Origin: a virus
Virus record (IMG/VR): IMGVR_UViG_3300037010_000292
Span: 1-64,000 of that record
DNA length: 64,000 nt
Reading direction: 5' to 3' (one strand)
The notes under the pieces were generated by a model. The model did no database searches. It was not told the origin of the DNA and worked only from the letters and a program-made list of their open reading frames with translations. Shown here piece after piece: positions 10,870 through 36,900 of the stretch (the stretch's first letter is position 1; each line of letters begins with the position of its first letter). The position numbers and the translations under genes were made by a program.

Positions 10870-11530
10870 AGAACGCTTCGAAGCCCTGAGCAGTTTCGAC
10901 CAGCAAACGATCCTCGACAAGTACCGGGATGTCAACCTCTGTGACGACTGGTGGGACGGCATCTATACAGATTTTGTGTTGGATATGCAGGCGCTCGGAA
11001 TACACATCGACACCCGGACGCAACGTACGGCCAAAGGCCACATATGGGAAGAGCCGGACATTAGCTTTTCCGGCTTTAGCAGCCAGGGCGACGGCGCATC
11101 ATTCGCCGGTCGTATGTATTGTTCTGATCTTCTTTGCCGTATGGAAAAAATTCCAGCAGCGCAAGAGATGTATGCCCGATACAAGTCAGACCTAGACTGC
11201 CACATCGTGTGGAGTTCGAAAGGGCACTACTGCCACTCCAGCTCGATGAAGTTTGACTTCGAATATGACTTGCCTGATGTCGATGACGACGCACCGGCTT
11301 TGAGGCAGGCAGCACAGCAACAAGTCCGCGACGAATTTGACTCTGTCATGGAGGAGTTCTTCGAAAACCTTAAAAAAGAAATAAAAGGCCATGCTGACGA
11401 CTTGTACATCAAGCTCGAAGAAGAAAACGACTACCTTTCTGACGACGAGCAAGTGCTCGAAGCTCTAATTGCGAACGACATGCTCGAAGACGAACTAAAG
11501 GGATATGAAGATGAACAAGAAAGCGCTTGA
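10859..11530 (+). CDS. Acidic hypothetical protein with SFSGFSSQGDGASF motif
   Basis: The 223-residue protein has a GTG start just after GAGGAGG. Its central motif (SFSGFSSQGDGASFAGR, about 62-78) is one I recognise from a family of phage and plasmid proteins without known function. The C-terminal third is strongly acidic and helical, perhaps coiled coil. It overlaps the VWA gene by 26 bases and belongs to the same cassette. Confidence 0.7.
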   Translation: MELRERFEALSSFDQQTILDKYRDVNLCDDWWDGIYTDFVLDMQALGIHIDTRTQRTAKGHIWEEPDISFSGFSSQGDGASFAGRMYCSDLLCRMEKIPAAQEMYARYKSDLDCHIVWSSKGHYCHSSSMKFDFEYDLPDVDDDAPALRQAAQQQVRDEFDSVMEEFFENLKKEIKGHADDLYIKLEEENDYLSDDEQVLEALIANDMLEDELKGYEDEQESA

Positions 11531-12611
11531 CCACCTCATCGCCGCTCGCGTGGCGCTGCTGCTGGATCACTACTTCTTTGGCCGCTTGGCCATGCACCTG
11601 AAGCTGGTGGAGAACACCAAGATTCCGACGCTGTGCGTGGACGGCAAGCACATCTTCTACAACCCGGACTTCGTGCTGACCTTGCCCAAGGACCTGGCCC
11701 AGTCTGCGTTCGTCCACGAGATCATGCACTGCGTCTCGAACCACACCACGCGTCGCCACGGCCGTAACCCGAAGGTTTGGAACTTTGCCGGTGACTACAT
11801 GATCAACCTGGTCATCAAGGAAGCTGGCTTCAAGCTTGGCCAGAACTGGCTCTATGACGCCAAGTACAAGGACATGTCCACCGAGCACATCTACGATCTG
11901 CTCATGCAGGATATGGAGCAGTCCGAGAAGTTGGAACAGTTCGACCAGGTGGTGGACGCCAGCGAATCGGCGGGTGAGACCGTCGAGATGGACATGGAGT
12001 GGGAGATCAACGTCCAACAAGCCGTGGCCGGTGCCAAGGTTATGGGCAAGATGCCCAAGGGCATGGAGCGCTTCGTCGAGATCAACGAGGAGCCTCAGGT
12101 GCCCTGGCAACAGGTGCTGCAGCGCTTCATCACCGAGATCAGCCGCAACGACTACAGCTGGTCCCGTCTGAACAAGAAGTACGTGCCCTACGGCTACTGC
12201 CTACCTGCGCTGCATAGTGAGAGCATGGGCCTGCTGGCCACCGGCATCGACACCTCCGGCTCCATCGACGGCCCTACCCTGGCCGCGTTTGGCAGCGAGA
12301 TCACTGCCGCGTTCGAGAGCACCCACCCCGAGAAGCTGATCAACATCTACTGCGACTCCCGTGTGGCGCACGTGGACGAGATTGAGCAAGGCGGTGGCCT
12401 GCCCGAGTTCAAGCCGCATGGTGGCGGTGGCACCGACTTCCACCCGCCGTTCCAGTGGCTCGAAGATCATGACCACAAGCCCGCCGCGTTCATCTACTTG
12501 ACCGACGGCTACGGCCCCTTCCCCTCTGAGCAGCCCGACTACCCGGTGCTCTGGTGTATGACAACCAACGTGGTCCCGCCGTGGGGTGAGCACGTGCGGA
12601 TAAGGATTTGA
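11505..12611 (+). CDS. Metallopeptidase-like VWA protein (DUF2201)
   Basis: The 368-residue protein combines an N-terminal zinc-peptidase-like domain (HEIMH at 71-75) with a C-terminal VWA-like domain carrying DTSGS (249-253), the first part of a metal-dependent adhesion site. This is the DUF2201 architecture. VWA proteins partner with MoxR ATPases, and the ATPase is in the same cassette. Whether the peptidase is active cannot be told. ATG 11,505 has AAAGGG nearby; ATG 11,511 is an alternative. Confidence 0.88.
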   Translation: MKMNKKALDHLIAARVALLLDHYFFGRLAMHLKLVENTKIPTLCVDGKHIFYNPDFVLTLPKDLAQSAFVHEIMHCVSNHTTRRHGRNPKVWNFAGDYMINLVIKEAGFKLGQNWLYDAKYKDMSTEHIYDLLMQDMEQSEKLEQFDQVVDASESAGETVEMDMEWEINVQQAVAGAKVMGKMPKGMERFVEINEEPQVPWQQVLQRFITEISRNDYSWSRLNKKYVPYGYCLPALHSESMGLLATGIDTSGSIDGPTLAAFGSEITAAFESTHPEKLINIYCDSRVAHVDEIEQGGGLPEFKPHGGGGTDFHPPFQWLEDHDHKPAAFIYLTDGYGPFPSEQPDYPVLWCMTTNVVPPWGEHVRIRI

Positions 12612-12612
12612 T

Positions 12613-13044
12613 ATGGGATACCGCAGCGACGTACACATGGTCGTCCAGGGCGTAGAGGAAGAAGTCCTCACCGCCTGGGGCGCGTTTCGACTGACGAACC
12701 CTTGGACCGGGATTGGTAAGGACCCGTGCGAAGAGCACATGTCCATCACCCGTAGTAAGGTGTACGTCACGATCTGCTTTACCGCTGAGGACTGGAAGTG
12801 GTACGGCGGCTATGAAGACGTGGATCGCATCAACAAACTGTGGTCACACTTCAGTGACTGGCCTAGCGACAACGAAGTATCAGGGATGCGAATGTCTGGT
12901 GCGTTCATCCGCATTGGTGAGGATGACACCGACATTGATACCAAATACTTCGGTGACGGTCCTTATGATTTGGCCAGAGTCACCCGCTCTATTGACTCTC
13001 AGTATTCCGTCGATCTTGCGAATGATATAAGATCGAAACTCTAA
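12613..13044 (+). CDS. Conserved phage hypothetical protein (MGYRSDV)
   Basis: The 143-residue, Trp-rich protein opens with MGYRSDV, a start shared by a group of phage proteins of unknown function. It begins one base after the VWA stop, so it probably belongs to the same transcript. Its last codons and stop lie inside the regulatory motif at 13,038-13,063. Confidence 0.7.
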   Translation: MGYRSDVHMVVQGVEEEVLTAWGAFRLTNPWTGIGKDPCEEHMSITRSKVYVTICFTAEDWKWYGGYEDVDRINKLWSHFSDWPSDNEVSGMRMSGAFIRIGEDDTDIDTKYFGDGPYDLARVTRSIDSQYSVDLANDIRSKL

Positions 13045-13063
13045 ATTAGATCGAGTGTAGAAT
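13038..13063 (+). promoter_or_regulatory. Recurring TCTAA-type motif with -10-like box
   Basis: ACTCTAAATTAGATCGAG matches the core TCTAAAnYAGATC and is followed by TAGAAT at 13,058-13,063, a plausible -10 box. A GC-rich imperfect hairpin (GCTCGG at 13,071-13,076 against CCGAGC at 13,092-13,097) lies between it and the HNH-AP2 gene, in the untranslated leader. Confidence 0.65.
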
Positions 13064-13136
13064 GGCGCAATGCTCGGAAGGCGGGAACCTCCCGAGCACC
13101 ACTTCACACACCACTTGTCAGAGGGGAACAAGCGCC

Positions 13137-13625
13137 ATGAGCAGTCAGATTCTAACGCACGAACGTCTTAAGTCTGTTTTAGATTACGACCCACTGACGG
13201 GCATCTTTAAGCGCCGGAGGGCGACCGCAGTTCGTGGTCATGAAGTCGGTGATGTCATGGCAAATGGCTATCTCCGTATTGGCATTGACCGCAAACGCTA
13301 TCTGGCACACCGCCTTGCTTGGTTCTACGTCCATGGCGTCTGGCCGACATATGAGGTTGATCACAAGAACCGTGTGAAGGCGGACAACAGGATTAAGAAC
13401 TTGCGCGATGCGACGCCTTCTATGAATCAGCACAACCGTGGAATTCCTAGTCGCAATACCACTGGTTACCAAGGCGTTAGTTTTGAAGCACGTACTTGCC
13501 AGTGGGTGGCTCAAATCGTCGCTCAGCGCAAACACCACTTTCTTGGCCGGTTTAACAGCCCGCAAGTAGCGCATGAAGCGTACCTCGCAGCCAAACGTAT
13601 TTACCACCCTACCACACCAACATGA
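13137..13625 (+). CDS. HNH homing endonuclease with AP2 domain
   Basis: I start this at ATG 13,137, preceded by GAGGGGA; the longer open frame from 13,062 is leader. The 162-residue product has the HNH core (HR at 58-59, DHKN at 75-78, then NRIKNLRDAT and NQHN) and a C-terminal AP2-type DNA-binding domain (GYQGVSFEA... FNSPQVAHEAYLAA). Such free-standing enzymes cut alleles lacking them and spread by repair. It has its own putative promoter and sits between unrelated genes. Confidence 0.9.
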   Translation: MSSQILTHERLKSVLDYDPLTGIFKRRRATAVRGHEVGDVMANGYLRIGIDRKRYLAHRLAWFYVHGVWPTYEVDHKNRVKADNRIKNLRDATPSMNQHNRGIPSRNTTGYQGVSFEARTCQWVAQIVAQRKHHFLGRFNSPQVAHEAYLAAKRIYHPTTPT

Positions 13626-14329
13626 CCACTCAAGTCAAAACCAGCAGCTGGTCGTTCTCGAAACTCCAGGATTTTTCGAAGTGCAAACGCATGTTCATGC
13701 TGAAGCACATTAACAAGATACCAGAGCCTGAACGCCCTCTGCCTCCTGGTAAGACCGAGCACGGCAATGACCGTGGCACCCGAGTGCATGAGAACGCTGA
13801 GGCTTACGTCCGCAATGAGCATGATGCACTCTGCCCAGAGGCTGAGAAGCACTTTAGTATGCACATGGATTTGTTGCGCTCGATGTATGCCGATGGCATG
13901 GTCGAAATGGAAGAGGAGTGGGCCTTCGACAAGGGTTGGGATGTCGCCCCCTGGAAGTCTGGCTGGGTGCGTATGAAGGTGGATGCACTCGTCCACTGGT
14001 CGAAGACTCACGCGAGTCTGATCGACTTCAAAACTGGACGTATCTACGGGAATGAAATCGTCCACGCGCAGCAGCTTCAACTCTACGCAGTCTCGACGTT
14101 CCTGCGCTACCCCCAACTCGAACACGTGACCGTAGCTGACTGGTACATCGACCATGGCGAGATCGTTGAACGTCAGTTCACACGTAGCCAAGCATTGCGC
14201 TTCAAACAAAACTTTCACAACCAGGGAATGTCGATCACCGAGTGTGATGACTTTCCGACCAATGCTAACAAATTTAGTTGCAGGTGGTGCCCGTACAAGA
14301 ACACTGAGCACTGCACTGTGGGAGTCTAG
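13622..14329 (+). CDS. PD-(D/E)XK nuclease, Cas4/RecB-like
   Basis: The 235-residue protein has the nuclease pattern His56, Asp121, DFK at 135-137 and the QxxxY-type segment (Q151...Y155). Four Cys (21, 220, 223, 231) flank it as in iron-sulphur nucleases of the Cas4/AddB group. It should process DNA ends in phage recombination or replication. It overlaps the HNH gene by four bases and precedes a SNF2 helicase, a common phage pairing. Confidence 0.85.
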   Translation: MTTQVKTSSWSFSKLQDFSKCKRMFMLKHINKIPEPERPLPPGKTEHGNDRGTRVHENAEAYVRNEHDALCPEAEKHFSMHMDLLRSMYADGMVEMEEEWAFDKGWDVAPWKSGWVRMKVDALVHWSKTHASLIDFKTGRIYGNEIVHAQQLQLYAVSTFLRYPQLEHVTVADWYIDHGEIVERQFTRSQALRFKQNFHNQGMSITECDDFPTNANKFSCRWCPYKNTEHCTVGV

Positions 14330-14545
14330 ATGAACGCATCTCAGCGGCGCTCACACGAGCGCTACCTGCTCAAGAAGTGGGGCGAACGAATTCTCAAACA
14401 TCAAGTAAAGGAACGACTCCGTGGTCGCATTAGCCTCTCCGCACTCAGCCTTGCGCGGTACTACGAAGCAGGTCAAAAAAACGAAATCAACGCCCGCCGT
14501 AATCAAGCCCTTCGCGCATCAGGTCAAGTCGCTCAAGCACAATGA
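14330..14545 (+). CDS. Small basic protein overlapping the SNF2 gene
   Basis: The 71-residue product is very basic (Arg/Lys-rich, helical) and begins immediately after the nuclease stop. Its last 125 bases overlap the start of the SNF2 helicase in another frame, with a run of seven A at about 14,475-14,481. Either this is an independent DNA-binding protein, or its first part was once joined to the helicase by a frame change. Confidence 0.5.
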   Translation: MNASQRRSHERYLLKKWGERILKHQVKERLRGRISLSALSLARYYEAGQKNEINARRNQALRASGQVAQAQ

Positions 14546-15959
14546 GAAGACCGACATAGTCTTCGACTGCAGCGACCCTGGGACGGGCAAGACGTATGTG
14601 CGGATCATGGCGTTTGCGACACGACTACGGGCCGCATCGTCCGGGACGAGTCGTCGCGGTACAAAACGAACCACGACGACTTCTACGACGCCTGGGCGCT
14701 CTATGCTAGTACTCGCGCCGAAATCACTGCTGAGGTCGGTATGGCTCAACGACATCAAGAAGTTCGCACCCCAGCTCACGGTGGCAGTAAGCACGGCAGG
14801 CAAACACGAAGAAGTGTTCAAGCAGGACGCTGATGTCTACGTCACCAACATCGACGCGGTGAAGTGGCTCGCCAAGCAGCCTAAGGGCTTCTTCGCGCGC
14901 TTCTCCGAATTGGTCGTGGACGAGTCCACCGCCTACAAGCACCACGCTTCCCAGCGCTCACGTGCTGCCGCCAAGATCAGCAAGTTCTTCCACTACCGCT
15001 GCTGCATGACGGGCACGCCCAACAGCAACAGCATCACGGATGTCTGGCATCAGGTACTGCTCCTGGACGGCGGCAAGCGTCTCGGCCCGAGCTTCTATGC
15101 GTTCCGCAACACAGTGTGTACGCCTAAGCAGGTCGGTATGAACGCCAACGCCATCAACTGGTCGGACAAGGGTGGCGCCGAGGAAGCCGTGTTCGGCCTG
15201 CTCAGCGACATCACCATCCGGCACAAGTTCGAGGACTGTGTGGACATCCCTGAGACCCATCAGTACAGCATCCCTTACGAACTGGGCCGCGCGCATCGCA
15301 AGGCATACGACGAGATGCTGGAGACCTGCATGTTGCAGATTTACGGCACCATGGAAGAGCGCGCTACGGCCCGCGTGCGCAGCAAAAAGCTAATGCCCAA
15401 GGCAGCTATCACTGCCCAGCACGCCGGTGTCCTGGCCCAGAAGCTGCTCCAGGTTGCCTCGGGCGCTGTGTACGAGTCCGAGAACAAGTACCACCTGATC
15501 GACACTGGCCGCTACGAGATGATCTTGGACCTGATCGAAGCGCGCAAGCACAGCCTGTGCTTCTTCTATTGGAAGCACCAACGCGACCTCCTGATTGCCG
15601 AGGCTGAAAAGCGCGGCGTCACGTTCGCTCTGATCGACGGCAGCGTGAAGGACTCTGAGCGCGAGGCCATCGTGAAGTGCTACCAGGCCGGTGCCTACCA
15701 GACCCTGTTCGCTCACCCCAAGAGCGCAGCGCACGGCCTCACGCTGACCAAGGGCACGGCCACCATCTGGTCTGGCCCGACCTATGACCTGGAGGTGTTC
15801 AAGCAAGGCTCCAAGCGTCAGGCCCGCATGGGTCAGACGCAGAAGACCGAGAACATCGTGGTCACGGCCAAAGACACGCGCGAAGAGCTGGTGTGGGACA
15901 TCTTGAATGAGAAGAATGCCCGCATGAGCAATCTACTCGACCTATTCTCTTTACTCTAA
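14421..15959 (+). CDS. SNF2-type DNA helicase/translocase
   Basis: The 512-residue superfamily 2 protein has motif I (GTGKT, 54-58), motif Ia (LVLAPKSLL, 96-104), motif II (DEST, 167-170), motif III (MTGTPNSN) and motif VI (QGSKRQARMGQ). It likely moves on duplex DNA in replication or recombination and pairs with the nuclease upstream. The start is unsure: GTG 14,421 lies in the overlap with the previous gene and has no clear ribosome site. Residues about 67-94 have an odd Arg/Thr/Ser-rich make-up that looks out of frame (see findings). Confidence 0.85.
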   Translation: MVALASPHSALRGTTKQVKKTKSTPAVIKPFAHQVKSLKHNEKTDIVFDCSDPGTGKTYVRIMAFATRLRAASSGTSRRGTKRTTTTSTTPGRSMLVLAPKSLLRSVWLNDIKKFAPQLTVAVSTAGKHEEVFKQDADVYVTNIDAVKWLAKQPKGFFARFSELVVDESTAYKHHASQRSRAAAKISKFFHYRCCMTGTPNSNSITDVWHQVLLLDGGKRLGPSFYAFRNTVCTPKQVGMNANAINWSDKGGAEEAVFGLLSDITIRHKFEDCVDIPETHQYSIPYELGRAHRKAYDEMLETCMLQIYGTMEERATARVRSKKLMPKAAITAQHAGVLAQKLLQVASGAVYESENKYHLIDTGRYEMILDLIEARKHSLCFFYWKHQRDLLIAEAEKRGVTFALIDGSVKDSEREAIVKCYQAGAYQTLFAHPKSAAHGLTLTKGTATIWSGPTYDLEVFKQGSKRQARMGQTQKTENIVVTAKDTREELVWDILNEKNARMSNLLDLFSLL

Positions 15960-15969
15960 CGGAGATCGT

Positions 15970-16119
15970 ATGAAACTCGTTCTGATTCAAGGCGACCACA
16001 TGGCCAACTACACCGGTCGTGCTCAGGAAGCTATCGTGAAAGTTCATAACTGGGACGGCTTCGACGTGCGCGTGTCGGTTGAAGCATTCCGCCTCGCCGG
16101 TGCAAGGGCGTTCGCATGA
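15970..16119 (+). CDS. Small hypothetical protein
   Basis: A 49-residue frame starts at ATG 15,970 after CGGAGA and ends overlapping the next start (ATGA). It opens with MKLVLIQGDH. It is short, but the ribosome site and the overlap support it. No family recognised. Confidence 0.55.
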   Translation: MKLVLIQGDHMANYTGRAQEAIVKVHNWDGFDVRVSVEAFRLAGARAFA

Positions 16120-16316
16120 GCCACACCCTCAACAAGGACCAGACGGTCGCTGTGTCAACAGACTACTACTGGCAAAAGATCGGCCTTGACACACCGCGCG
16201 GCGTGAAGCTGCAGCTCCTGGGTATTGGCGGTGTGGCTGTCTACAGTCAGTGGGACGGCAAGTCCCGCTACTGGACTCACTGGGCACCCTGCCCGCGCAT
16301 GCCGGAGGACAACTGA
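16116..16316 (+). CDS. Small hypothetical protein
   Basis: The 66-residue product is rich in Trp and Tyr and contains no recognisable motif. It overlaps its neighbours by four bases and one base; its TGA shares a base with the polymerase ATG, so polymerase translation is probably coupled to it. Confidence 0.55.
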   Translation: MSHTLNKDQTVAVSTDYYWQKIGLDTPRGVKLQLLGIGGVAVYSQWDGKSRYWTHWAPCPRMPEDN

Positions 16317-19276
16317 TGGGATGGGGAGACGCAATACGCCGCAAGGCACAGGTGATCATTAACCGCCCGGACATCACGCCTGGGATCGTTGACTGGAACC
16401 GCCTCGTAACTATTGACTTCGAAAGCTATTGGGATAGCGACTACACCCTGTCCAAACTCAGCACGTCTGAGTACGTACGTGATAAGCGCTTCAAGGCACA
16501 GATGGTGGGCATCAAGATCGGCAACAAACCGACCAAGGTGTACACCGGGCAGCTACGCATCATGGCCGCGTTGCAGAGCATTAACTGGGCCACGCACAGC
16601 CTGCTCTGCCACAACACGGCCTTCGACGGCTTCATCCTCTCGCACGTCTACAAGATCGTCCCGTTCCAGTACTACGACACGCTGAGCATGGCCCGTGGCC
16701 TGCACAGCAATGAAATTGGTGCGAGCCTGGACGAGGTGGCCCAGTTCTACGGCAAGGGCTCCAAGCTCGACGGCGTGCTGGAGACCACTAAGGGCGTGGG
16801 CGACTGGGATCAGAAGCTGGTCAAGGCGGTGACGCCCTACTGCGCCCAAGACGTGGACCTGACGCACGCCATCTTCAAGGAGATGCACGCCAAGTTCCCT
16901 GCCGACGAGCTGGACCTGGTGGACATGACCATCCGCATGTTCTGCGACCCGGTGCTGAAGGTGGACATCCCGCGCGTGCAGAAAGAGTACGAGCGCGAGG
17001 TGGCCGAACGCAAGCGCAAGTTCTATGCAGTGCTGGACCCCAAGCCCTACTACGCCGACAAAACCGTGCTCAAGACTACGGCTGAGCGCGCGCTGACCGG
17101 TGAGGAGCGTGACATGCTGATCATCAAGCGCGTCATCGGCTCCAACGAGAAGTTCGCTGACTTGCTGCGGGCCGAGGGCATCGACCCGCCCATGAAGCCC
17201 AGCAAGGCGTATATCAAGCTGAGCAAAGAGGAGAAGGCCCTTGTCGCTGAAGAGGATAAATGGTCGTACGCGTTCGCAAAGGATGACGCCGAGTTCACGT
17301 CGCTCCCCGAGAACATTGACCTCTGGCGCGGTGCGCTTGACCCGAACAAAGTCAAGGACATACCTAAGATTTCGGCGAAGCAAGATCGTATCCGCTCGCT
17401 GGTCGATGCTCGTCTTGCGGTTAAAAGCACGACGAATATTACGCGCGCAGAACGCTTCCTGAAGGCTGGTGCCAACGGCATGAGTCTGCCGGTGGGCTAT
17501 GCCTACTACCGCGCTCACACGGGCCGGTGGGGCGGCAACAACAAGATGAACATGCAGAACCTCACCCGTGGTGGTGAGCTGCGCCTGTCCATCCTGGCAC
17601 CCAAGGGCTACCAGATGTGCGTGGTGGACAGCGGCCAGATCGAAGCCCGCGTGAACGGCTGGCTGTGGGGTCAGGATGACCTCATGGCTGCGTTCCGTGC
17701 GGCTGACGCTGGCACCGGTAGCGACGCCTACTGCAACTTCGCCACGCTGATCTACGGCCGGCCGATCACCAAGGAAGACAAGACCGAACGCTTCGTGGGC
17801 AAGGTCTGCCTCGGACCAGACACCATCGTATTGACAAACCATGGTCTTAAGTCTATACCCCAAATACGATCTAACGATTTGCTATGGGATGGAAAATCAT
17901 GGGTAACGCACGATGGGCTAGTAAAGCAAGGAGTGAGGACGACCCTGTCATACCGGGGAATATCCGCCACGCCGGACCACGAAATCCTGACGGAACGTGG
18001 GTGGCTGGAGTGGCAAGAGGTCCTTACCGACCGTTCCCTTTTCCGGTCGGCACTAAGTTCGGCGAACTTACCGTCGTACGGTGGGAGCATTACACGTCAA
18101 AAGACGGCAAGCCGTGGGGGTATCGCCCTGTCTGCCAGTGCTCTTGCGGGGCCGAGTCTATGGTCTATGTCAGCAGCCTTAAGGCAGGACGCTCTACGCG
18201 ATGCAACGCTTGCGCAAAAATTGCGGCAAGCGCAAAACGCTACTGGGTCTACAGGGATGCTATGCCGAATGACGAGCATCGCACTCGCCTGCTTAACCGC
18301 TTGTCATCAGCAATTGCGCGCTGTAGTAACCCGAACAATGCCTCGTATAAGCACTATGGGCGACGCGGCATCGCAGTTCATCCTGGCTGGTGCAACGACG
18401 GAGCAGAGTTTCTGCGGTATGTCCAGACATTACCTGGATGGGATGTACCTGAGCTTGAGTTTGATCGAATCGACAACAACAGCGGGTACTGCCCAGGCAA
18501 CGTCAGATTCGCCACTAAGTCTGTCAACACCGGAAACAAGCGACGAATCGAAGACCTCGAACAACGCATTCGTGATCTCGAAGCAGACAACGCAAACTTA
18601 CGATCTCGCAAACGCAGGGCCTAACCATTGTTTCACAGTCATGTCTGATGACGGCCCGGTCATCGTTCATAACTGCGTTCTCGGACTTGGTTTCCAGATG
18701 GGCGCACCGAAGTTCCAGATGACCCTGGCCAAGGGTGCCCTCGGTGGCCCGCCGATCTTCTTCGAGCTGGACCGCTGCGTGCAGATCGTGAACACGTACC
18801 GCCGAACGAATCACAAGATCAAAGGCGGCTGGGACATCTGTGCCAAGATCATCGAAGACATGGCCGCTGGCCGGTCCGGTCGTCATGGCCCGATCACATG
18901 GGAGAAGGAGACCATCTGGCTCCCTAACGGCATGTCGCTCAAGTACCCCGAGCTGCGCAAGGCCGTCAGTGACAAGGGCTGGGACGAGTGGTCCTACAAG
19001 TCCGGCGACATGCGCAAGAAGATTTACGGCGGGCTGCTGTGCGAGAACATCGTGCAGGCCCTGGCGCGAATCATCGTGGCCTGGCAGATGCTGCAGATTC
19101 GCAAGAAGTACCGCATCGTCATGACCACACACGACGAAGCTGTGGCGCTGCCCAAGACCGCTCAGGCCAAGCAGTGCTTCGCGCTGATGACCAAGGTCAT
19201 GAGCACAGCGCCCAGCTGGTGCCCCGACATCCCGCTCGCATGCGAAGGAGGGCATGCCTCTAACTATAGTAAATAA
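16316..19276 (+). CDS. Family A DNA polymerase with intein
   Basis: The precursor has 986 residues: N-extein 1-497, intein 498-786, C-extein 787-986 (mature 697). The N-terminus has a 3'-5' exonuclease motif (TIDFES, about 33-38). The polymerase domain shows motif A (VDSGQIEARV), motif B around FVGKV/CVLGLGFQMG, and motif C (TTHDEAV). The intein splits motif B two residues after its Lys, in the nucleotide-binding helix, so splicing is needed for activity. I choose ATG 16,316, which overlaps the previous stop; the frame stays open upstream to 16,250. GGAGGA lies 10 bases before it. Confidence 0.93.
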   Translation: MGWGDAIRRKAQVIINRPDITPGIVDWNRLVTIDFESYWDSDYTLSKLSTSEYVRDKRFKAQMVGIKIGNKPTKVYTGQLRIMAALQSINWATHSLLCHNTAFDGFILSHVYKIVPFQYYDTLSMARGLHSNEIGASLDEVAQFYGKGSKLDGVLETTKGVGDWDQKLVKAVTPYCAQDVDLTHAIFKEMHAKFPADELDLVDMTIRMFCDPVLKVDIPRVQKEYEREVAERKRKFYAVLDPKPYYADKTVLKTTAERALTGEERDMLIIKRVIGSNEKFADLLRAEGIDPPMKPSKAYIKLSKEEKALVAEEDKWSYAFAKDDAEFTSLPENIDLWRGALDPNKVKDIPKISAKQDRIRSLVDARLAVKSTTNITRAERFLKAGANGMSLPVGYAYYRAHTGRWGGNNKMNMQNLTRGGELRLSILAPKGYQMCVVDSGQIEARVNGWLWGQDDLMAAFRAADAGTGSDAYCNFATLIYGRPITKEDKTERFVGKVCLGPDTIVLTNHGLKSIPQIRSNDLLWDGKSWVTHDGLVKQGVRTTLSYRGISATPDHEILTERGWLEWQEVLTDRSLFRSALSSANLPSYGGSITRQKTASRGGIALSASALAGPSLWSMSAALRQDALRDATLAQKLRQAQNATGSTGMLCRMTSIALACLTACHQQLRAVVTRTMPRISTMGDAASQFILAGATTEQSFCGMSRHYLDGMYLSLSLIESTTTAGTAQATSDSPLSLSTPETSDESKTSNNAFVISKQTTQTYDLANAGPNHCFTVMSDDGPVIVHNCVLGLGFQMGAPKFQMTLAKGALGGPPIFFELDRCVQIVNTYRRTNHKIKGGWDICAKIIEDMAAGRSGRHGPITWEKETIWLPNGMSLKYPELRKAVSDKGWDEWSYKSGDMRKKIYGGLLCENIVQALARIIVAWQMLQIRKKYRIVMTTHDEAVALPKTAQAKQCFALMTKVMSTAPSWCPDIPLACEGGHASNYSK
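17807..18673 (+). mobile_element. Intein in DNA polymerase, 289 residues
   Basis: Intein residue Cys1 (TGC 17,807) begins block A (CLGPDTIVLT). Block B is GISATPDHEILTERGW (51-66, with TxxH). Block F is YDLANAGPNHCFTV and block G ends in VIVHN, followed by extein Cys at 18,674. These are the standard residues for splicing. In its own frame there is no LAGLIDADG or HNH motif between the blocks. Instead the middle is a stop-free, Ser/Ala/Thr/Leu-rich stretch that is the shadow of an HNH gene in another frame. Confidence 0.92.
17884..18624 (+). CDS. HNH endonuclease encoded out of frame inside the intein
   Basis: This 246-codon frame lies wholly within the intein coding sequence but in a different frame. 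From about residue 55 it matches the phage HNH family also seen at 26,024: GTKFGELTVV, a Cys cluster (84, 86, 88, 107, 110), RCSNPNNASYKHYGRRGIAV, then FDRIDNNSGYCPGNVRFAT (193-211), and a coiled-coil tail. The start is unclear: ATG 17,884 has no ribosome site, ATG 17,899 has GGATGG upstream. Its first 55 residues and last nine codons overlap intein splicing blocks. It probably promotes homing of the intein. Confidence 0.85.
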   Translation: MGWKIMGNARWASKARSEDDPVIPGNIRHAGPRNPDGTWVAGVARGPYRPFPFPVGTKFGELTVVRWEHYTSKDGKPWGYRPVCQCSCGAESMVYVSSLKAGRSTRCNACAKIAASAKRYWVYRDAMPNDEHRTRLLNRLSSAIARCSNPNNASYKHYGRRGIAVHPGWCNDGAEFLRYVQTLPGWDVPELEFDRIDNNSGYCPGNVRFATKSVNTGNKRRIEDLEQRIRDLEADNANLRSRKRRA

Positions 19277-19285
19277 TCGTTACTA

Positions 19286-19291
19286 TATAAT
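19286..19291 (+). promoter_or_regulatory. Possible sigma70-like -10 box before HNH gene
   Basis: TATAAT at 19,286-19,291 lies in a short AT-rich gap after the polymerase stop and 24 bases before the HNH start, with AAAGGAG in between as ribosome site. I see no good -35. It would let the HNH gene be transcribed on its own. Confidence 0.45.
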
Positions 19292-19314
19292 AGAGGAACA
19301 TTAAAGGAGTTCAC

Positions 19315-19872
19315 ATGCGTACACCCTGCTCTGTTTGCGGCGAGCCGTCGGTCGGTCGCGGGTACTGTAAAAAACACTACCGCGCGTTTATGAAATATGG
19401 CGACCCGCTTAAATCAGCGAACTTGCGCGGAGTACCGTTCCGCGAACGTTACCAGGTCGACTCAATAACCAACTGCTGGTTATGGATCGGGGCAACAGTA
19501 ACTTGCGGGTATGGGATATGGACCGCCCACGGCGAGAAAAATGCTCACCGTGGGTCATGGGTTATGCACAATGGGCCAATTCCGAGAGGCATGCACGTTC
19601 TGCACAAGTGCGACAACCCAGGGTGCGTGAATCCTGAGCATCTACGACTCGGCACGCATCAAGACAACATGCGCGACCTCCGAGAAAAAGGCCGTGCATA
19701 CGGTGCTAAGGGCGAGGCCAATCTTTCGGCCAAGCTCAACGAACAGCAAGTGATGGCGATTCTCGACGACATAAGGCTGACTCGCGTCATTGCTAACGCC
19801 TATGGGCTGACTCAGTCGTCGGTCCAAAACATAAAGAACGGTAAGACGTGGAAACACCTTACCGGCAAATAG
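19315..19872 (+). CDS. HNH endonuclease (HNH_3 type)
   Basis: The 185-residue protein has an N-terminal Cys/His cluster (CSVCG...YCKKHY), an HNH core (HVLHKCDNPGCVNPEHLRLGTHQDNM, about 97-122) and a C-terminal helix-turn-helix (VIANAYGLTQSSVQNIKNG). This is the usual make-up of free-standing phage homing endonucleases. AAAGGAG precedes the ATG. It sits directly after the polymerase and has its own AT-rich leader. Confidence 0.9.
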   Translation: MRTPCSVCGEPSVGRGYCKKHYRAFMKYGDPLKSANLRGVPFRERYQVDSITNCWLWIGATVTCGYGIWTAHGEKNAHRGSWVMHNGPIPRGMHVLHKCDNPGCVNPEHLRLGTHQDNMRDLREKGRAYGAKGEANLSAKLNEQQVMAILDDIRLTRVIANAYGLTQSSVQNIKNGKTWKHLTGK

Positions 19873-19904
19873 TTTACGGACGAAAGCGGATGCGCTACGT
19901 TAGA

Positions 19905-19929
19905 GCCTAAACGCTCTGGCGTTTAAGGC
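19905..19929 (+). terminator. Hairpin after HNH gene
   Basis: GCCTAAACG (19,905-19,913) pairs with CGTTTAAGGC (19,920-19,929) apart from one bulged base, with a 6-base loop. No U-run follows, so it may be a weak terminator, an RNA-processing site or an operator rather than a standard terminator. Confidence 0.4.
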
Positions 19930-19965
19930 GACGCAGCGAGTAGTCCACCCTACATGGAGAAGTCA

Positions 19966-20736
19966 ATGTTTGCATTTGATGGACGGGGTATCCCCCACGC
20001 TCACACGTATGAAGCCGCGAAGAAGGTCTGGGAGGATGCACCGCTGTCCTCTCTGGACGGCTGGCGCGGTTTGAAGAACAAGCGTGATACCACCAAGGTC
20101 GTGCGTAACCGGGATGGCGTCTTTGACTTTCGTTACCACCGGACTGATGTGGTGACTTGGTACAAAGACTTGATCACGATCCGTTTCTACGACAGCATAA
20201 GCACGATCAACTTCGCCAGCTGCTATCTGCCGCTCGGAATCAACGCGCGTAGTCATAAAGGCGACATGTACGTCGAGCAAGACGGTAACTGGTACGTACC
20301 CAAGAAGGGCGTGCTGGAGTTCCGGCCGAAGAACGGAAAGTGGATGGTGGACACGGACCTCGTGCACCGGCATGAACGGTACGTGCTGGACAAGAAACGC
20401 GCAGCTGAGATCAGGAAGCTCCTCGGCCCGTTCCGTGAGTACCGCGACGCAGTGACGCGGTTGCGGCAAGCACATGCGCCATTCCGAACCGCGCGCCGGG
20501 ACGATGAGCATCTGCTGGCACTGATGCTTCGTGACCGCATTCATCAGGGCAGACCGCTGGAGCAGTCGCAGTTCAAGCAGCTGCTGGAGAACCCCTGGGC
20601 TCTGAAGAACGATGACGTGTTCCTCAAGACTGCTTACCTGACAGGTGGGGCAGTCAAGAAAGAACTTGCTGAGATCGGCGTGCCTAAGGAGCGCAACAAG
20701 TACGAAGGTCGTGCTGGCCTGAGCTACGTCGTCTGA
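19966..20736 (+). CDS. Hypothetical protein
   Basis: I start this at ATG 19,966, because GGAGAA seven bases upstream would otherwise lie inside the gene (an in-frame ATG at 19,954 has no ribosome site). The next gene start at 20,791 has the same layout. The product is 256 residues, basic and rich in Arg, Tyr and Trp, with a helical charged region at about 140-190. I recognise no domain. It lies in the replication block between the polymerase and the 20,791 gene. Confidence 0.7.
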   Translation: MFAFDGRGIPHAHTYEAAKKVWEDAPLSSLDGWRGLKNKRDTTKVVRNRDGVFDFRYHRTDVVTWYKDLITIRFYDSISTINFASCYLPLGINARSHKGDMYVEQDGNWYVPKKGVLEFRPKNGKWMVDTDLVHRHERYVLDKKRAAEIRKLLGPFREYRDAVTRLRQAHAPFRTARRDDEHLLALMLRDRIHQGRPLEQSQFKQLLENPWALKNDDVFLKTAYLTGGAVKKELAEIGVPKERNKYEGRAGLSYVV

Positions 20737-20738
20737 AA

Positions 20739-20760
20739 TCTTTTTCAGATCTGTCAAAGA
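20739..20760 (+). promoter_or_regulatory. Palindromic element upstream of 20,791 gene
   Basis: CAGATCTG (20,746-20,753) is a perfect palindrome flanked by TCTTT and AAAGA arms (20,739-20,743 and 20,756-20,760). TAATAAT follows near 20,766 and could serve as -10. The ATCTTTTTCAGATC portion resembles the sequence at 7,949-7,961. It could be an operator or promoter. Confidence 0.45.
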
Positions 20761-20790
20761 TTGTGTAATAATTCACCTATGGAGAAAAGT

Positions 20791-21201
20791 ATGGCAACAG
20801 CCACAAAGACCGCAATGCCCAAGGTCCGCGAACTCGCGGTGGGCGCAACCATCGACCAGCTCTGGGGCTACCGCGAACAGAAGCGCGCCCTGGAAACTCA
20901 GATCAAAGAGGTCGAGGAAAAGGCCAAAGAGATCGAAGAAAAGCTCATGGAGCGCCTGGGCAAGGAAGGCCTGGAAAAGGCCACCGGCACCAAGGCCTCC
21001 GTGTCCATCACGTCCTCTGTCACTGCCGACGTGCAGGACTGGGACGCGTTCTACCCCTACATCGCAAAGAACAAGTTCTGGCACTTGCTCCAGCGTCGTG
21101 TCTCCGACCCCAGCTACCGCGAGTTGCTGGAGCAGGGGAAGAAAGTTCCTGGTGTTGTCCCCTTCACCAAGAAGCGCATCAATCTCCGTTCCACAACTTA
21201 A
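20791..21201 (+). CDS. Conserved phage replication-region protein
   Basis: The 136-residue protein (ATG 20,791 with GGAGAA upstream) has a Glu/Lys-rich coiled coil at about 27-55 and a conserved C-terminal half (WDAFYPYIAKNKFWHLLQRRVSDPSYRELLE). I recognise this as a widespread phage protein next to single-strand-binding or replication genes, with no assigned activity. It is followed by the zinc-motif protein at 21,211, as in other phages. Confidence 0.75.
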   Translation: MATATKTAMPKVRELAVGATIDQLWGYREQKRALETQIKEVEEKAKEIEEKLMERLGKEGLEKATGTKASVSITSSVTADVQDWDAFYPYIAKNKFWHLLQRRVSDPSYRELLEQGKKVPGVVPFTKKRINLRSTT

Positions 21202-21210
21202 GGAGCCAAC

Positions 21211-21999
21211 ATGGCCACCGCAAAAAAGGCAGCGCCCGCTGCACCCGCCAAGTCTGCAAAGGCTGGCACCAACGCCGTAGCTCTGAAAAAGACTAGCGGC
21301 GCTGTCGTCGACATCCGCGCTCAGCTGGCTGCTCAAGCTGCTGCCATGAACGAGCGCACTGCGCCCGCCTCCGGCATCAGCATCCGCACCGCCGGCAAGA
21401 AGTTCGCGTTCCCTGACGGCCGTAAAGACGACGGCCCCGTCGAGATGGTCGTGATCGACTTCGTGGCTCGCAACGAGTTCTACGAAGCTGATTTCGACAA
21501 GGATAACATCGTGCCTCCGGCATGCTTCGCCATCGGCACCATCCCGACCAAGCTGATTCCCTCGGGTAACAGCCCCCAGCAGCAGTGCGACGACTGCGCC
21601 AGCTGCCCCATGAACGCCTTCGGCTCCAAGGGCAAGGGCAAGGCCTGCTCCAACACCCGCCTGCTGGCTGTGGTGGAACCCGGCTCCGACGCCGACGCAC
21701 CGATCTACCTGCTGAAAGTGTCGCCCACCGGCCTGAAGAGCTTCGACGGCTTCGTGCAGAGCACCAGCCGCACGTTCCAAGTGCCGCCCGTGGGTGTTGT
21801 GGTCACTGTGGGCTTCGACGATGGCGAAGACTACCCCAAGCTGACCTTCACCGACGCGAAGCCCAACGAAGACCTGGAAGTCCACTTCGGTCGCCAGGAA
21901 GAAGCTCGCGCCCTGCTGAATCAGGAACCCGACGTGTCCGGCTACGAGACCCCCAAGCCCAAGGGTGCCAAGGGTCGCGCAGCTCCCGCTCGCCGCTAA
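21211..21999 (+). CDS. Conserved phage protein with Cys motif, possible ssDNA-binding role
   Basis: The 262-residue protein has a Lys/Ala-rich flexible start, a beta-rich core and a Cys motif (CDDCASCPMNAFGS...KACSN, about 129-150) that could bind zinc. It ends in a basic tail. Similar proteins occur in the replication modules of many tailed phages. A single-strand-binding or replication-accessory role is suggested by position only. AAGGAG precedes the ATG. Confidence 0.7.
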   Translation: MATAKKAAPAAPAKSAKAGTNAVALKKTSGAVVDIRAQLAAQAAAMNERTAPASGISIRTAGKKFAFPDGRKDDGPVEMVVIDFVARNEFYEADFDKDNIVPPACFAIGTIPTKLIPSGNSPQQQCDDCASCPMNAFGSKGKGKACSNTRLLAVVEPGSDADAPIYLLKVSPTGLKSFDGFVQSTSRTFQVPPVGVVVTVGFDDGEDYPKLTFTDAKPNEDLEVHFGRQEEARALLNQEPDVSGYETPKPKGAKGRAAPARR

Positions 22000-30973: not shown

Positions 30974-33900
30974 TCACTCCGCAAAAGTCGGGTCCGCCTT
31001 TCCTCCGCCGAACGCATTCGCATACAGAGCATTCGCTGGCATCGAATGCAGGATGAAGGATTGGTAGGTCTCGCGTCCGGCCAGCGTCTTCATGGCGTCA
31101 CCCAACTGCTCAATGCTCGGACCTGTGACCGAGCCAAAATTCCCGCGTGCTGCGTCCAGACCGATCTGGCCCACGCCATAGAGACCTGCGCGTTCGATGC
31201 CGTTCTCCAGGTAGTCACCCACGCCCCAGTCCTTCTTCCAGCTTGGCACGCCGCCACCAGTCTGTATGAAGCCCTTGGCCGCGTCCGCAGCGATCATGAT
31301 GGGCACGTAGCCCATGAGCGCCATCGCGGGGCTGTAGTTGCCGTTCTTGGCCTCATGCACCACCCGTCCCAGAATGGTGTGGTGGAAGGCGTAGACGAAC
31401 TGCTTGAGGTGGCTGATCAGCATAAAGTGAGGGTCAGACATCCACACAGCCTTGTCGGCGGCATCAGGCCGGAGCATGGCACCATCCACCCACTGGTTCA
31501 CAGCGGACTTGATGCGTGCTGCCTGCTCCAGGCTCAGACCTTCATGTGTGCCGGTAGCCACGCGGCCATCCACCATCTTCACATCGCTCGGGTTCAGGCC
31601 CAGCTCCTTCATGTAGCGTGCGCTGTGGACGCTCTCGCCCTTGGAGTGCTTGGCGATGAACTGCAGTGCTGCCTCTGTCGCGCCCACGCGCATGGAGGTG
31701 TTCCACTGCTCCATCAGGTTGAAGCGAAAGAACGTGTCGTTGATCTTGCGTGCCGTGCCGCCCACCACACCCTGCGTGTAGGTCGCGCCCAGCGCGTGGG
31801 TCAGAGATGCCTTGCTGATCACGTCCAGGTCCTCAGCCAACTTCGTGGCCGCGTCCTTGGAGCCGGTGCCCTTCAGGCCTGCGGAGATCTCCGAGATGCC
31901 ACGGGTGAAGGCCTTCCATGCGTTGCCCACACCACCACCACGGACTGCGATGCCCATGGGGTCCACGATGCCGCTGAAGAACGCTAGCGGCAGCAGACGG
32001 ATGTTCTGGTACACGATCATGTCGCCCATGAGGCGTCGAGCCGTAGGGTTCAGGTCATCGCCCAGTGTGCCGTTCACAGCTTGGATGTAGCGCTCGGTGT
32101 TCTTGATGTCACGCACCGTGGCACCTTCGCGCCGGGCCTGGTCCAGCAGCTCGTTCATGCGGTGGTTGTCGCCGCCGAAGCGCCGTGCCCACTCAGCCTT
32201 GCGCGTGGCCTGTTGGAGGTAGCTGCTCACGATGGGCAGCAGCTCCTTGGTCATGAAGGGCGCAGCGTCCTCATGCGAGATGAAGGACAGCACACGCTCC
32301 TTATTCGATCCCATACCCGGCTGGCCAACGACTTGCAGCTCGGAACCGTCAGCGGCCACCAGCTTGTTGTAGGTCTCCTCGGGGTTGTGCCACTCGGGGT
32401 AGTGCCGCGCCATGTCCATGAACGCTTCCTTGTTCTTGGACAGGTAGTGCGGGTCCCAGGTGCGGGGGAAGTAGTCCTTGCCCACGCCCAGGTCACCGAG
32501 CTTCACACCGGCTGCGGTCAGGTAGCTGTGTGCTTCGTCGAGCAGTGCGCGGATACCTTGGTGCAGGGCCTTGGCCTCAGGAGAGGTCGGCACCTTGCCG
32601 GTCTGCAGCGCCTGCAGCGCCTCGCGCTGCACAGACTCATCAGCGCCCTCCACCAGACCGGCCAGCTTGTTGGCACGCTCGGTGTAGGCCTCACGCGATG
32701 CCGGGATGTAGCCAGCGTCACGGCCCTCGTCGGTGTACTTCTTCTTCACCAGCTCAGCGATGCGCTGCAGCGAGGGCACGTTGGTGTCGCGCAGGTTCTG
32801 GCCACCGGAACCGACCACTTCCTCAGCGAGGTGGGTCAGCGGCTTGGCCAGCGTGCGGATTTGCGCAGCCACCTGGGTCAGGTTCTTGGACATCAGGGCC
32901 TTGGCCACCACGCTAGGCTCCAGGCGGTCCTCAGCGTACTCACCGCTGTGGAAGTAGTTCATGATGTGCTCGGCGTGCTCTTCGTTGGTCCAGTGACCTA
33001 TCAGGCCGCGCAGGAACTGACCGATGCGACCAAACAGCCCCTCGGCCTTGGGTGCCAGGTTCAGTTTGCCCTGCGCCCACATCTGGTACATCACGGCCAC
33101 GCGCTCTTCGGGATCATTCTTGAGCTGGCGCAGCACGCCGATCTCATCCTTGAAGAACTGCTTCATCTGGGCCAGCACCACGGGAGAGTCAGCGACCTTC
33201 TGCAGCACGTCGACCACATCGCCGTGGCCCTTGGTCATGAGGTCGTGGAAGAACGCGTGCATGGACTCGTGGTAGGCCGTGCTGCGCGGGTTTAGTGCAT
33301 TCACCGCCACGCGGATGACGCCAGCCGGGTCGTACTCACCGGCGTGCGGCATGAACCGGTCCAGCTGCTGGCGCACCCACGGAGTGACGCGGTCCAGGTA
33401 GTCCTTCACTGCCTCGGTAGCAGACCGTGAGCCGCGCTCATGGAGCGTGCCTTCGAGGCTGTACTTCTTGGTCTGCATGCCGTAGGCTGTGTCGGGGTTG
33501 GCGTGCAGTAGCTCGGCGATGCGTGCGTTGGCCACGTCCGTGGCCTTCATCACCTCAGGTGTAGGCTCCTCGCCAGCCAGCGCCTCGACGGCGCGTTGGA
33601 GCGACTTCGGGTCGTTGCTGGTCTTCAGCTCTTCGAGGACTTTGGGGTCGCCTTTGCGGACGGCTTCGGTGAAGCGGGCCTGCTGAACACTGACACCTCC
33701 CCCGGCTTCGGCTTGTACGCCAGCCCGCCCAGCTTCAGCTGGTCCCCGCGATCCTCGTTCGGTGAGGGCTTTGATGGCTTCGTAGGTCTTTGGAAGGACT
33801 TCACGCATTACCTCCGGGTTGAATTGATATAGGGCAAAAGACTGGGAGAACAACTCACGCTGCGGGTTGCGCGCCGTGGTCATCGCCTGAGCGTACCACT

Positions 33901-36900
33901 GACGGAGCGTGCCGTTTTTCTCCATCGCGGCCTGAATCTCTCCGTGGAGATCGCCGTCGCGGAAGAAGTCGTCGTGGTTGTCGGAGTAGTTCCCCAGCTC
34001 GCGGTCGAGGAGGTGCCCCACCTCATGCGCCACCGCGCGCTCTACCTTACCCTCCAACGAGCCTGTGAACAGCGTGTGGTCGTCGAACAGCTGCTTGTTC
34101 AGGATGATGTGGTGCAGGCTCTCGCGGGTCACCGCTTTACCAGCGAACTTCTGGTCGTTGGTGTCGTGGACCTGGATTCCTTGAATCTCAGGCATGCGGT
34201 CGCCGAGTGACGCCTTAACACGGTCAAGCACGCCGTCGATGTGGGCTTGCTCCTCGGGGGAGGCACGGCGCAGTGCCATGTCGGGGAACTCGCGCTGCAG
34301 GCGCTCCAAGCTCTTACCAGAGGAAGCCGCCTTCTCGGCGGCTACCGCTTTTGGGTCGGGGTTTCCCCCAAACAGATTGGAGCCATTGCGCTTGTCAGCT
34401 AGGTCACGGGTGGACTTGGCCGCAGTCTCGGAGGGCTTGGCCTCACCGCGTCCGAAGTCCTTGCCGAACACCTTCTCCCATGGCGCATCGGCCTTGCTGC
34501 CCAGCTCGTGGTTGCTAGGGCCTTGGACCTTCGTGTCCTTCAGGTTGCTCTGCTTGGGCACGTCACCCTTGGCAGTTTTGGCCGGTTCAGGGGCCTTCCA
34601 GTCAGCACCCAGGTACTTGTCCTGCAGCGGGGCCAGGGTCTTGGCGATCACGTCGGTGGTGGCCTCATGGTGGGTCATGGCCACGAGGCTTGCGCGCTCG
34701 CGCGGGGTCATGGCATCCATGTGCTCAGACAGTTGCAGCATGGCGTGACCCAGCGTGTTGCCGGTGCGGCTCTGCAGACCGGTCTTGGCCTGCACCGCAG
34801 CGATCAGCTCGTGCCCACGGTCCACCACCGCCTCGTGCCCTTGGTGGCCGCGTGCCTTCTCACCGCCGCCACCGGTGCTGCGGGTCTGGGTGTAGCGCGG
34901 CGTGCCGTCCATGTTGGTCGTGATGCGGTGCTCACCGTTATTGCCCGAGCCCTTCAGGGACTGAATCTGATGGATGTTGGCGTCCTCACCGATGTCCTGC
35001 TGGCCGTTCTTGGCCAGCATGTCCTGGGCAGAGTCGCTGCGCTCGCGCTTGAACAGCTCGCTGCTCAGGGTGCGGCCTTTGGATTCCAACTCGTTCAGTC
35101 CGAAGTGCTCGCGCAGGTCCTTGTCCTTGAACAGCTCGTACTTCAGCTCGCGTGCGCGCCATGCTGGCAGCTCAGCGCCTATCTCGCTTTCACGCTGGGC
35201 CACCAGACCGGCCACGTGTTCGCGCAGTTTGTCTTCAGCTTCTTTGATGGCGTTGTGGTTGCGCCGGTAGATGCTCTCGATCTCATGGGTCTCCATGCCG
35301 TCCAGGGTCTCTTGGGCCTTGGTACGTGCGGAGGAGCGCACACCTACGGTGTCTGCGCCCTTGATCTCTTTCAGCGTGACGGGCTTGCCGTCCGTGTGGC
35401 GCACCACCAGATCAGGGCTGGGCTTGAACTCGGGGTGCTCAATCATCAGCTGCGAGATGCCGTGCAGCAGGGCCTGGTTCTTGCGCGCCAGTGCGTCACC
35501 TTCGGGGGCGATGCCGGTGCGCTGCATGTGCTTGGCACCGGCGCGTTCGATCTTGGTGGCGTCCAGCGTGTGGCCGTCCACGTCGATGCGGGAGGGGTGA
35601 GCCTTGTCGCCGCCGTAGGACTTCGTGTTGAACGCCATGCGCTTGTAGTCCTGGCCTTGGAAGCCGTCGCTGTCAGCCAGCTTCTCGGCCACCACAAAGC
35701 CGTGGTCCTCACGGCCCTTGCCCACGCCCAGTTCTTTCTCGGATTTCCAGGCCACCTTGCGGTCAGGGTGCTTGGCCTGAGCGTCATACAGAGCCTGCTG
35801 GCCGTAGTTCTGACCCTCGCGGTTCTCTGCCTTGAACTTAGCCGGGTCATACAGCGGCTGGTTCTTGCTCTTGCCACCGCCATACTGCACACGGTCCATG
35901 GCCGGGTCGCTGGAGTTGTTGTCGCCCTCACCCTCGTCGTACATGTGCTCGTCTTCGTCGGGCAGGTCTCGGCCCCGGCCAGCGGTGGCTTCTTCATGCA
36001 CGCCACGCTGGCGCAGAATCTCGGACTCCAGAGCCTTCTGGATTTTCTTGGTGTGCTTGCCCAAAGTGGACTCCATCAGGTCCTGTACCTGACGGGCTTC
36101 GTTGCTGGCCTTGGCGACCAGGAACTCGTCGGTGCCAGCGCCCTCGCGGTTGCGCGGATCGCGTGCATACCAGTCCATCATGTGACGGGTCAGTTCGCCC
36201 GCGTCCATGGAGTCGGCGTGGCCGTTCTCCTCCAGGGCCTTCTGCACCATGCCTTTCAGGGAGCCGAAGGCCTTCTGGTCTGCGGCCAGATTGCCCATCT
36301 GGTCTGCGTGCTTCACCAGCTGCGCTGGAGGCGTGTCGCCACGGGCGGCATTCATCTGGTCCAGCAGCTTGGTCGTGTCGTCGCCGAAGTGCTGGAACAG
36401 GCCGTTCTTGATCCCCTCGGGCAGCGGCGCGTCGGAGGTGTAGGTGTGGTGCAGGACCTGGCGGAACAGCTCGCCGACGTTCTTCATCGCCTCGGGGTCG
36501 TTCAAGGTGTCGGGGCTGTTCTTCTGGAGCCACGGAGCCGCCACGTCGGTCAGCACCTTGCGCTCACCGGAGAAGTCGTCGGAGCGTTTGACCTCCTTGG
36601 CATCCGCGTCGATGGTGTTGGAGTCCTTGTCGGTGATGCGGGCGTCCGTACCGCCAGGGTTCTCCTGGCGGGCGTTGAAGTCCTTCACGCTGTCAGTGAC
36701 GAAGTCCTTCAGGCCCTCGGCTTTTTCCTTGGCTGCTTTCCAGCCGCTGGCCAGGGTTGCACCCATACGCACCGCAGAAGGGTGACTGGCCAGGTTGTCC
36801 AAAGTGTCCTTGGCCGACTGGCGCATCTCGGGGGAGATACCCACGTCCTCGGCCATCTCGCTCAGGCTGGCGCGGACCTTCTCGAAGGCGGTCTTGTCGT

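Follow-up and report, generated by a model that had tools for sequence, protein, structure and literature searches.

Can a polymerase intein and its homing endonuclease be written in the same DNA in two different reading frames, so that one stretch of sequence yields two separate proteins? This question is raised by a family A DNA polymerase gene (polA) in the viral record IMGVR_UViG_3300037010_000292, positions 1 to 64,000 of which, the whole stretch of 64,000 nucleotides analysed, are called the window here and supply the coordinates below. The gene carries an intein, and an HNH reading frame lies wholly within this intein, two bases out of phase with it. The sequences favor a mobile phage PolA intein with a dual-coded homing endonuclease that would be translated separately from an internal start, an interpretation to which we give a probability of roughly 0.8. 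The coordinates (17,807-18,673 and 17,884-18,624) and the description of the arrangement in a first-pass annotation proved exact when the sequence was read again. The features of the locus, all on the plus strand, are as follows:

16250..19276, +: family A DNA polymerase gene with intein (PHROG DNA polymerase, 1.5e-60), open throughout
17807..18673, +: intein of 289 amino acids, class 1 type (Cys1, TPDH, terminal His-Asn, Cys+1)
17807..18079, +: folded N-terminal splicing domain (predicted local distance difference test [pLDDT] ~97; top Foldseek matches all inteins)
17872..17874, +: TAA that bounds the HNH frame on its 5' side (sequence reading)
17884..18624, +: HNH reading frame at its maximal extent, 246 codons (PHROG HNH endonuclease, 2.1e-35)
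17899..17901, +: likeliest HNH start codon, an ATG at intein position +92, a position common to most relatives of class A1
18031..18621, +: folded part of the HNH protein with a C-terminal helix (pLDDT mostly >90)
18080..18562, +: intein-frame filler, predicted disordered (pLDDT < 50), free of stops, protein sequence not conserved
18563..18673, +: C-terminal splicing domain, blocks F and G (motif reading and AlphaFold)

A class 1 intein with an HNH frame in another phase

The insert shows the sequence pattern CLGPDTIVL...TPDH...TYDLANAGPNHCFTV...VIVHN|C and thus has the residues expected of a class 1 intein, namely Cys1, a block B TxxH motif (TPDH, 17,969-17,980), a terminal His-Asn pair, and a Cys, Ser, or Thr at +1, here Cys. 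The splicing blocks are therefore intact, as the first-pass annotation had claimed, and C1, T55, H58, H288, and N289 are invariant among 27 homologous inteins. AlphaFold, given an alignment of these 27 inteins, orders the two ends of the intein (residues 1 to 91 with a pLDDT of ~97 and residues 261 to 289 with ~96, with order from about residue 253), and nearly all residues between them have a pLDDT below 50. Foldseek searches of the PDB retrieved the gp41-1, DnaB, and RecA inteins with a probability of 1.00, which identifies the HINT fold. The insertion is precise, in frame, and at a conserved site, as seen from four IMG/VR polymerases (L301, L324, L341, and L348) that are 82 to 89% identical to the window polymerase over the N-extein; they read FVGKV|CVLGLG without interruption and lack exactly 867 nucleotides. 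On these blocks and this fold the insert is assigned to the class 1 inteins, and autocatalytic splicing is predicted. The polymerase alignments of most relatives begin at about residue 23, which corresponds to an ATG at 16,316.

The HNH frame occupies the +2 (= −1) phase relative to the intein and belongs to the HNH endonucleases by similarity to PHROG 374 (phrog_374). Its AlphaFold model has a mean pLDDT of 86, with values mostly over 90 after about residue 45, and presents strands plus a helix around a DRIDNN..N motif. In the models, the folded parts of the two products overlap by ~48 nucleotides on the side of the N splicing domain and by ~59 nucleotides on the side of the C splicing domain (block F), so that the HNH shares bases with both splicing domains, a point also made in the first-pass annotation.

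Two frames dividing one stretch of DNA

To place the locus among its relatives, IMG/VR was scanned with three HNH alignments and GTDB genomes with one, and the loci were classified by profile hidden Markov models. An HNH of these families occurs at 297 loci, and at 126 of them it lies between the N and C blocks of an intein. The nested HNH is out of frame in all 126 and in frame in none, and an endonuclease in the intein's own frame is accordingly missing throughout. The phase is fixed for each HNH family, always +2 in A1 and always +1 in A2 and A3; A1 and A3 have the window's insertion site in common and differ in phase. Three loci have inconsistent frames, one with an apparent 1-bp shift (L037), one with an ambiguous base (L149), and one that is split (L123).

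Across the HNH domain of the window, the intein frame has no stop. When the HNH codons are shuffled synonymously, the mean is 2.62 stops (P for zero stops, 0.016); in the third frame, 12 stops stand against an expectation of 11.7. A single locus is thus only moderately improbable, but the homologous layout over 126 loci excludes chance. Synonymous-codon shuffles of the HNH genes predict 3.6, 5.3, and 10.7 intein-frame stops per locus in A1, A2, and A3, respectively, and hence 0.7, 0.4, and 0.2 stop-free loci; the frame is stop-free in 39 of 39, 42 of 43, and 44 of 44 loci, or in 125 of 126 overall versus ~1.3 expected. Un-nested HNH genes (n = 164), which serve as controls, have nearly the expected number of stops (5.3 versus 5.6 and 13.2 versus 14.8). 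With these shuffles and controls, a chance open frame was rejected, and the pattern indicates that the intein frame is kept open by selection.

The substitution pattern differs between the frames. Differences among HNH relatives cluster at codon position 3 of the HNH frame, and the ratio of nonsynonymous to synonymous substitution rates (dN/dS) is 0.06 to 0.17 in that frame and 0.84 to 2.7 when the same DNA is read in the intein frame. The N splicing block has a dN/dS of 0.03 to 0.15 where computable (for the N-extein, the ratio came from a gap-free computation and cannot be used for pairs with upstream sequences that fail to align). When the two frames of the window were aligned separately with those of L336 and L342, the HNH proteins were 71 to 72% identical and the intein filler 22 to 24%. 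Because of these contrasts in dN/dS and identity, the two frames divide the DNA, the ends being under splicing constraint and the middle under nuclease constraint. Substitutions and models together indicate that the HNH frame encodes a real protein under purifying selection. They also bear out the first-pass proposal of real dual coding, with splicing and endonuclease in different frames and an endonuclease that would need its own start.

Distribution and age of the layout

Searches with tblastn place both frames at the same position in Jersey- and Kagunaviruses of Salmonella and Escherichia coli, Pseudomonas phage MR14, Vibrio phage 97.13, and EBPR siphovirus 2, and with the intein frame as query 143 Salmonella and 11 Escherichia records matched. 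The +1-phase layout is present, by translation, in Shewanella SFCi1, Caulobacter RLK, Streptococcus Javan101, Gardnerella AB1, and APSE-1. The first-pass annotation had suggested a recent or unusual acquisition. The 126 nested, out-of-frame loci argue against a single oddity. A recent origin does not agree with the same-phase layout in phages whose HNH proteins are merely 33 to 56% identical to that of the window, nor with the HNH protein tree, in which at least two switches between the nested and the free-standing state must be assumed. Since the layout recurs in more than 100 related phage polymerases, its sequences mark it as a long-kept and widespread architecture of phage PolA inteins and not an accident. 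A sequencing indel, which could have displaced an in-frame HNH, was likewise rejected: no indel was found, contig IMGVR_UViG_3300035661_000477 (L300), possibly from the same sample, matches the window without a difference over 12,250-21,806, and the layout is conserved.

Proposed life cycle and alternative explanations

In the explanation that we favor, ribosomes reading polA would make a precursor in which the N- and C-terminal parts of the insert form a HINT domain and splice out together with a disordered, stop-free linker of unconstrained sequence. Other ribosomes would start inside the intein, most likely at the ATG at 17,899, and translate the −1 phase into a separate HNH protein. This protein would cut intein-free polA, and repair would copy the whole 867-bp element into the cut gene.

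A homing cycle of this kind predicts empty, nested, shortened, second-site, and free forms, and the loci match this prediction. The window polymerase family holds empty alleles beside A1-type nested inteins (the window, L336, and L342) and an A3-type nested intein (L321). The intein lacking the HNH stretch, which the first-pass annotation had proposed to look for, occurs at the same PolA site as a shortened form of 552 nucleotides, with the HNH body deleted and the intein frame kept (L326, 5,504-6,055; L327, 3,265-3,816). A second PolA site holds A2-type nested inteins (L305, L327, and L357), which in L327 places a second intein with a nested HNH ~370 nucleotides beyond the shortened one. In L109 (3,389-4,015), a free A2-clade HNH stands just downstream of an uninvaded polymerase.

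Two further loci, L131 (3,742-4,920) and L123 (3,729-4,930), carry apparent split inteins in three cistrons, PolA-IntN, HNH, and IntC-PolA. In both, the polymerase frame ends right behind the N splicing domain, the HNH opens with an ATG of its own, and the start codon of the IntC-polymerase overlaps the HNH stop (ATGA). The lone stop-bearing locus among the 126 is L131, and the sequences indicate that the filler frame gathers stops once the intein has been split. Whether dual-frame PolA inteins form a separate long-lived class that has arisen at least twice, includes HNH-less forms, and can split once the HNH becomes independent, which would offer a route to natural split inteins, is a question on which we put even odds.

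Several observations weigh against an active homing endonuclease translated from its own start. The Shine-Dalgarno sequence of the window ATG is weak (−6.4 kcal/mol, the 13th percentile of random start-like triplets), and in A1 such sequences are no stronger than the intein amino acids alone predict (Fisher p 0.26). The DRIDNN..N motif is without the canonical first His and holds no invariant His, the HNH had no significant match in Pfam, NCBIfam, or PDB sequences, and Foldseek gave no significant structural match for its model, so that the predicted HNH activity is not assured. Loss of the element could account for part of its sporadic distribution, and the case for both the HNH product and splicing is built from sequence and models.

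Of the alternatives, the one that survives best keeps the architecture and denies the mobility: an old dual-coded intein would now be inherited mainly vertically, with an HNH that has another role or is a passenger. The large number of Jersey-type records with the intein and the missing His fit this view. Against it stand the sporadic occurrence among close polymerases, including the empty relatives at 82 to 89% identity, and the presence of several nested HNH families at the same or the second site within one polymerase family. We consider it improbable.

It is less probable still that programmed ribosomal frameshifting from polA produces a PolA-IntN-HNH fusion, even though upstream ribosomes would be abundant and the HNH frame of the window class is indeed the −1 frame. 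One class would require a −1 shift and the others +1; the A2 HNH frame opens just ~24 to 66 nucleotides ahead of the domain, with a start codon there; Jersey phages have a stop just upstream of the ATG; and the split forms begin at a plain ATG. Since the families need opposite shifts and stops lie close upstream, internal initiation is the likelier route. In nearly all loci, the HNH frame has a start codon whose place within the intein recurs (+92 or +98 in A1, +145 in A3, and mostly +187 to +202 in A2), and strong Shine-Dalgarno sequences are common at these positions. Their excess over the expectation from intein codons is weak in A2 (p 0.04) and clearer in A3 (p 0.003). Much of the Shine-Dalgarno signal follows from conserved intein residues, and a clear excess is confined to A3.

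A dead HNH remnant inside an intein frame that is open by chance would suit the absent His and the moderate improbability of a single locus (P 0.016). As a general account this reading is contradicted by the substitution pattern, with its low dN/dS in the HNH frame and its contrast in identity to L336 and L342, and by the 125 stop-free loci, and we hold it to be very unlikely. An RNA intron carrying an HNH gene, with an incidentally open polymerase frame, recalls the group I introns, in which HNH genes are common, and is scarcely credible, given that no group I or group II intron family in Rfam matched the insert at E ≤ 1, that the ends encode, in frame and with clean extein borders, a confidently folded HINT domain with its splicing residues, and that the polymerase frame is kept open.

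Relation to known systems

Canonical inteins contain an in-frame homing endonuclease, of the LAGLIDADG or HNH type, within the polypeptide that is spliced out. The intein of the window, like them, has a HINT splicing domain interrupted by an endonuclease; unlike theirs, its HNH would be a separate protein in another frame. By eye, no nested HNH was seen in the inteins of the Blubba portal, Nordenberg MuF, and Mcat21, and the Blubba portal intein has an in-frame LAGLIDADG-like motif. A group I intron with an HNH gene resembles the window element in having a separately translated HNH inside a splicing element and differs from it in that excision in the window would take place at the protein level, with the host frame staying open. 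The "fractured genes" of Dassa et al. in 2009 are reportedly split inteins whose halves flank an endonuclease gene, with nucleases said to be of a different family. L123 and L131, with IntN, HNH, and IntC in separate cistrons, are similar to them, whereas the window intein is continuous.

Among published cases, the one nearest to the window layout is the ShiLan domain of mycobacteriophage methylases, an insert with an out-of-frame HNH, in which its authors detected no intein splicing domain; they considered splicing unsupported (PMC11855218, 2025). Both have the HNH in another frame of the insert, an open host frame, a sporadic distribution, and a proposed separate start (PMC11855218). The likeness is one of layout; the HNH of the window is flanked by complete splicing blocks, and the host gene differs. 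In APSE-1 (NC_000935.1), an HNH coding sequence (P46) is already annotated as nested in the polymerase coding sequence (P45); this pair is of the +1 class and differs from the window in PolA insertion site, phase, and HNH family. A literature search retrieved no paper that treats the P45/P46 nesting as dual coding and none that reports an intein with splicing domains and an HNH in another of its frames; one preprint, on the "non-canonical architecture" of actinophage inteins, lies outside this search, and priority is left unjudged.

In the window layout, splicing and endonuclease would have DNA and not protein in common, so that each could evolve and be expressed separately, at the cost of a second frame that must stay open while otherwise unconstrained. 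These loci make up a natural overlapping-gene system in which the constraint on each frame is measurable and for which matched controls exist: HNH genes that are not nested, empty alleles, an intein with the HNH deleted, and split inteins. L123 and L131, being split, point to a way, open to testing, in which split inteins could originate. Many phage records may also hide a missed gene. In the public record of vB_SenS-Ent3 (L019, 2,501-3,397), for example, the intein is labeled as "encoding splicing domains" and the HNH frame is unannotated.

Other genes of the window

Directly downstream of the polymerase, at 19,315-19,872, lies another HNH gene, different in type (Pfam HNH_3, 8.9e-17) and in a frame of its own. 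A further nuclease gene of the same phage, at 11,505-12,611, matches PHROG 1314, "HNH endonuclease" (7.3e-102). The minus strand contains an open frame of 2,321 amino acids at 30,974-37,939.
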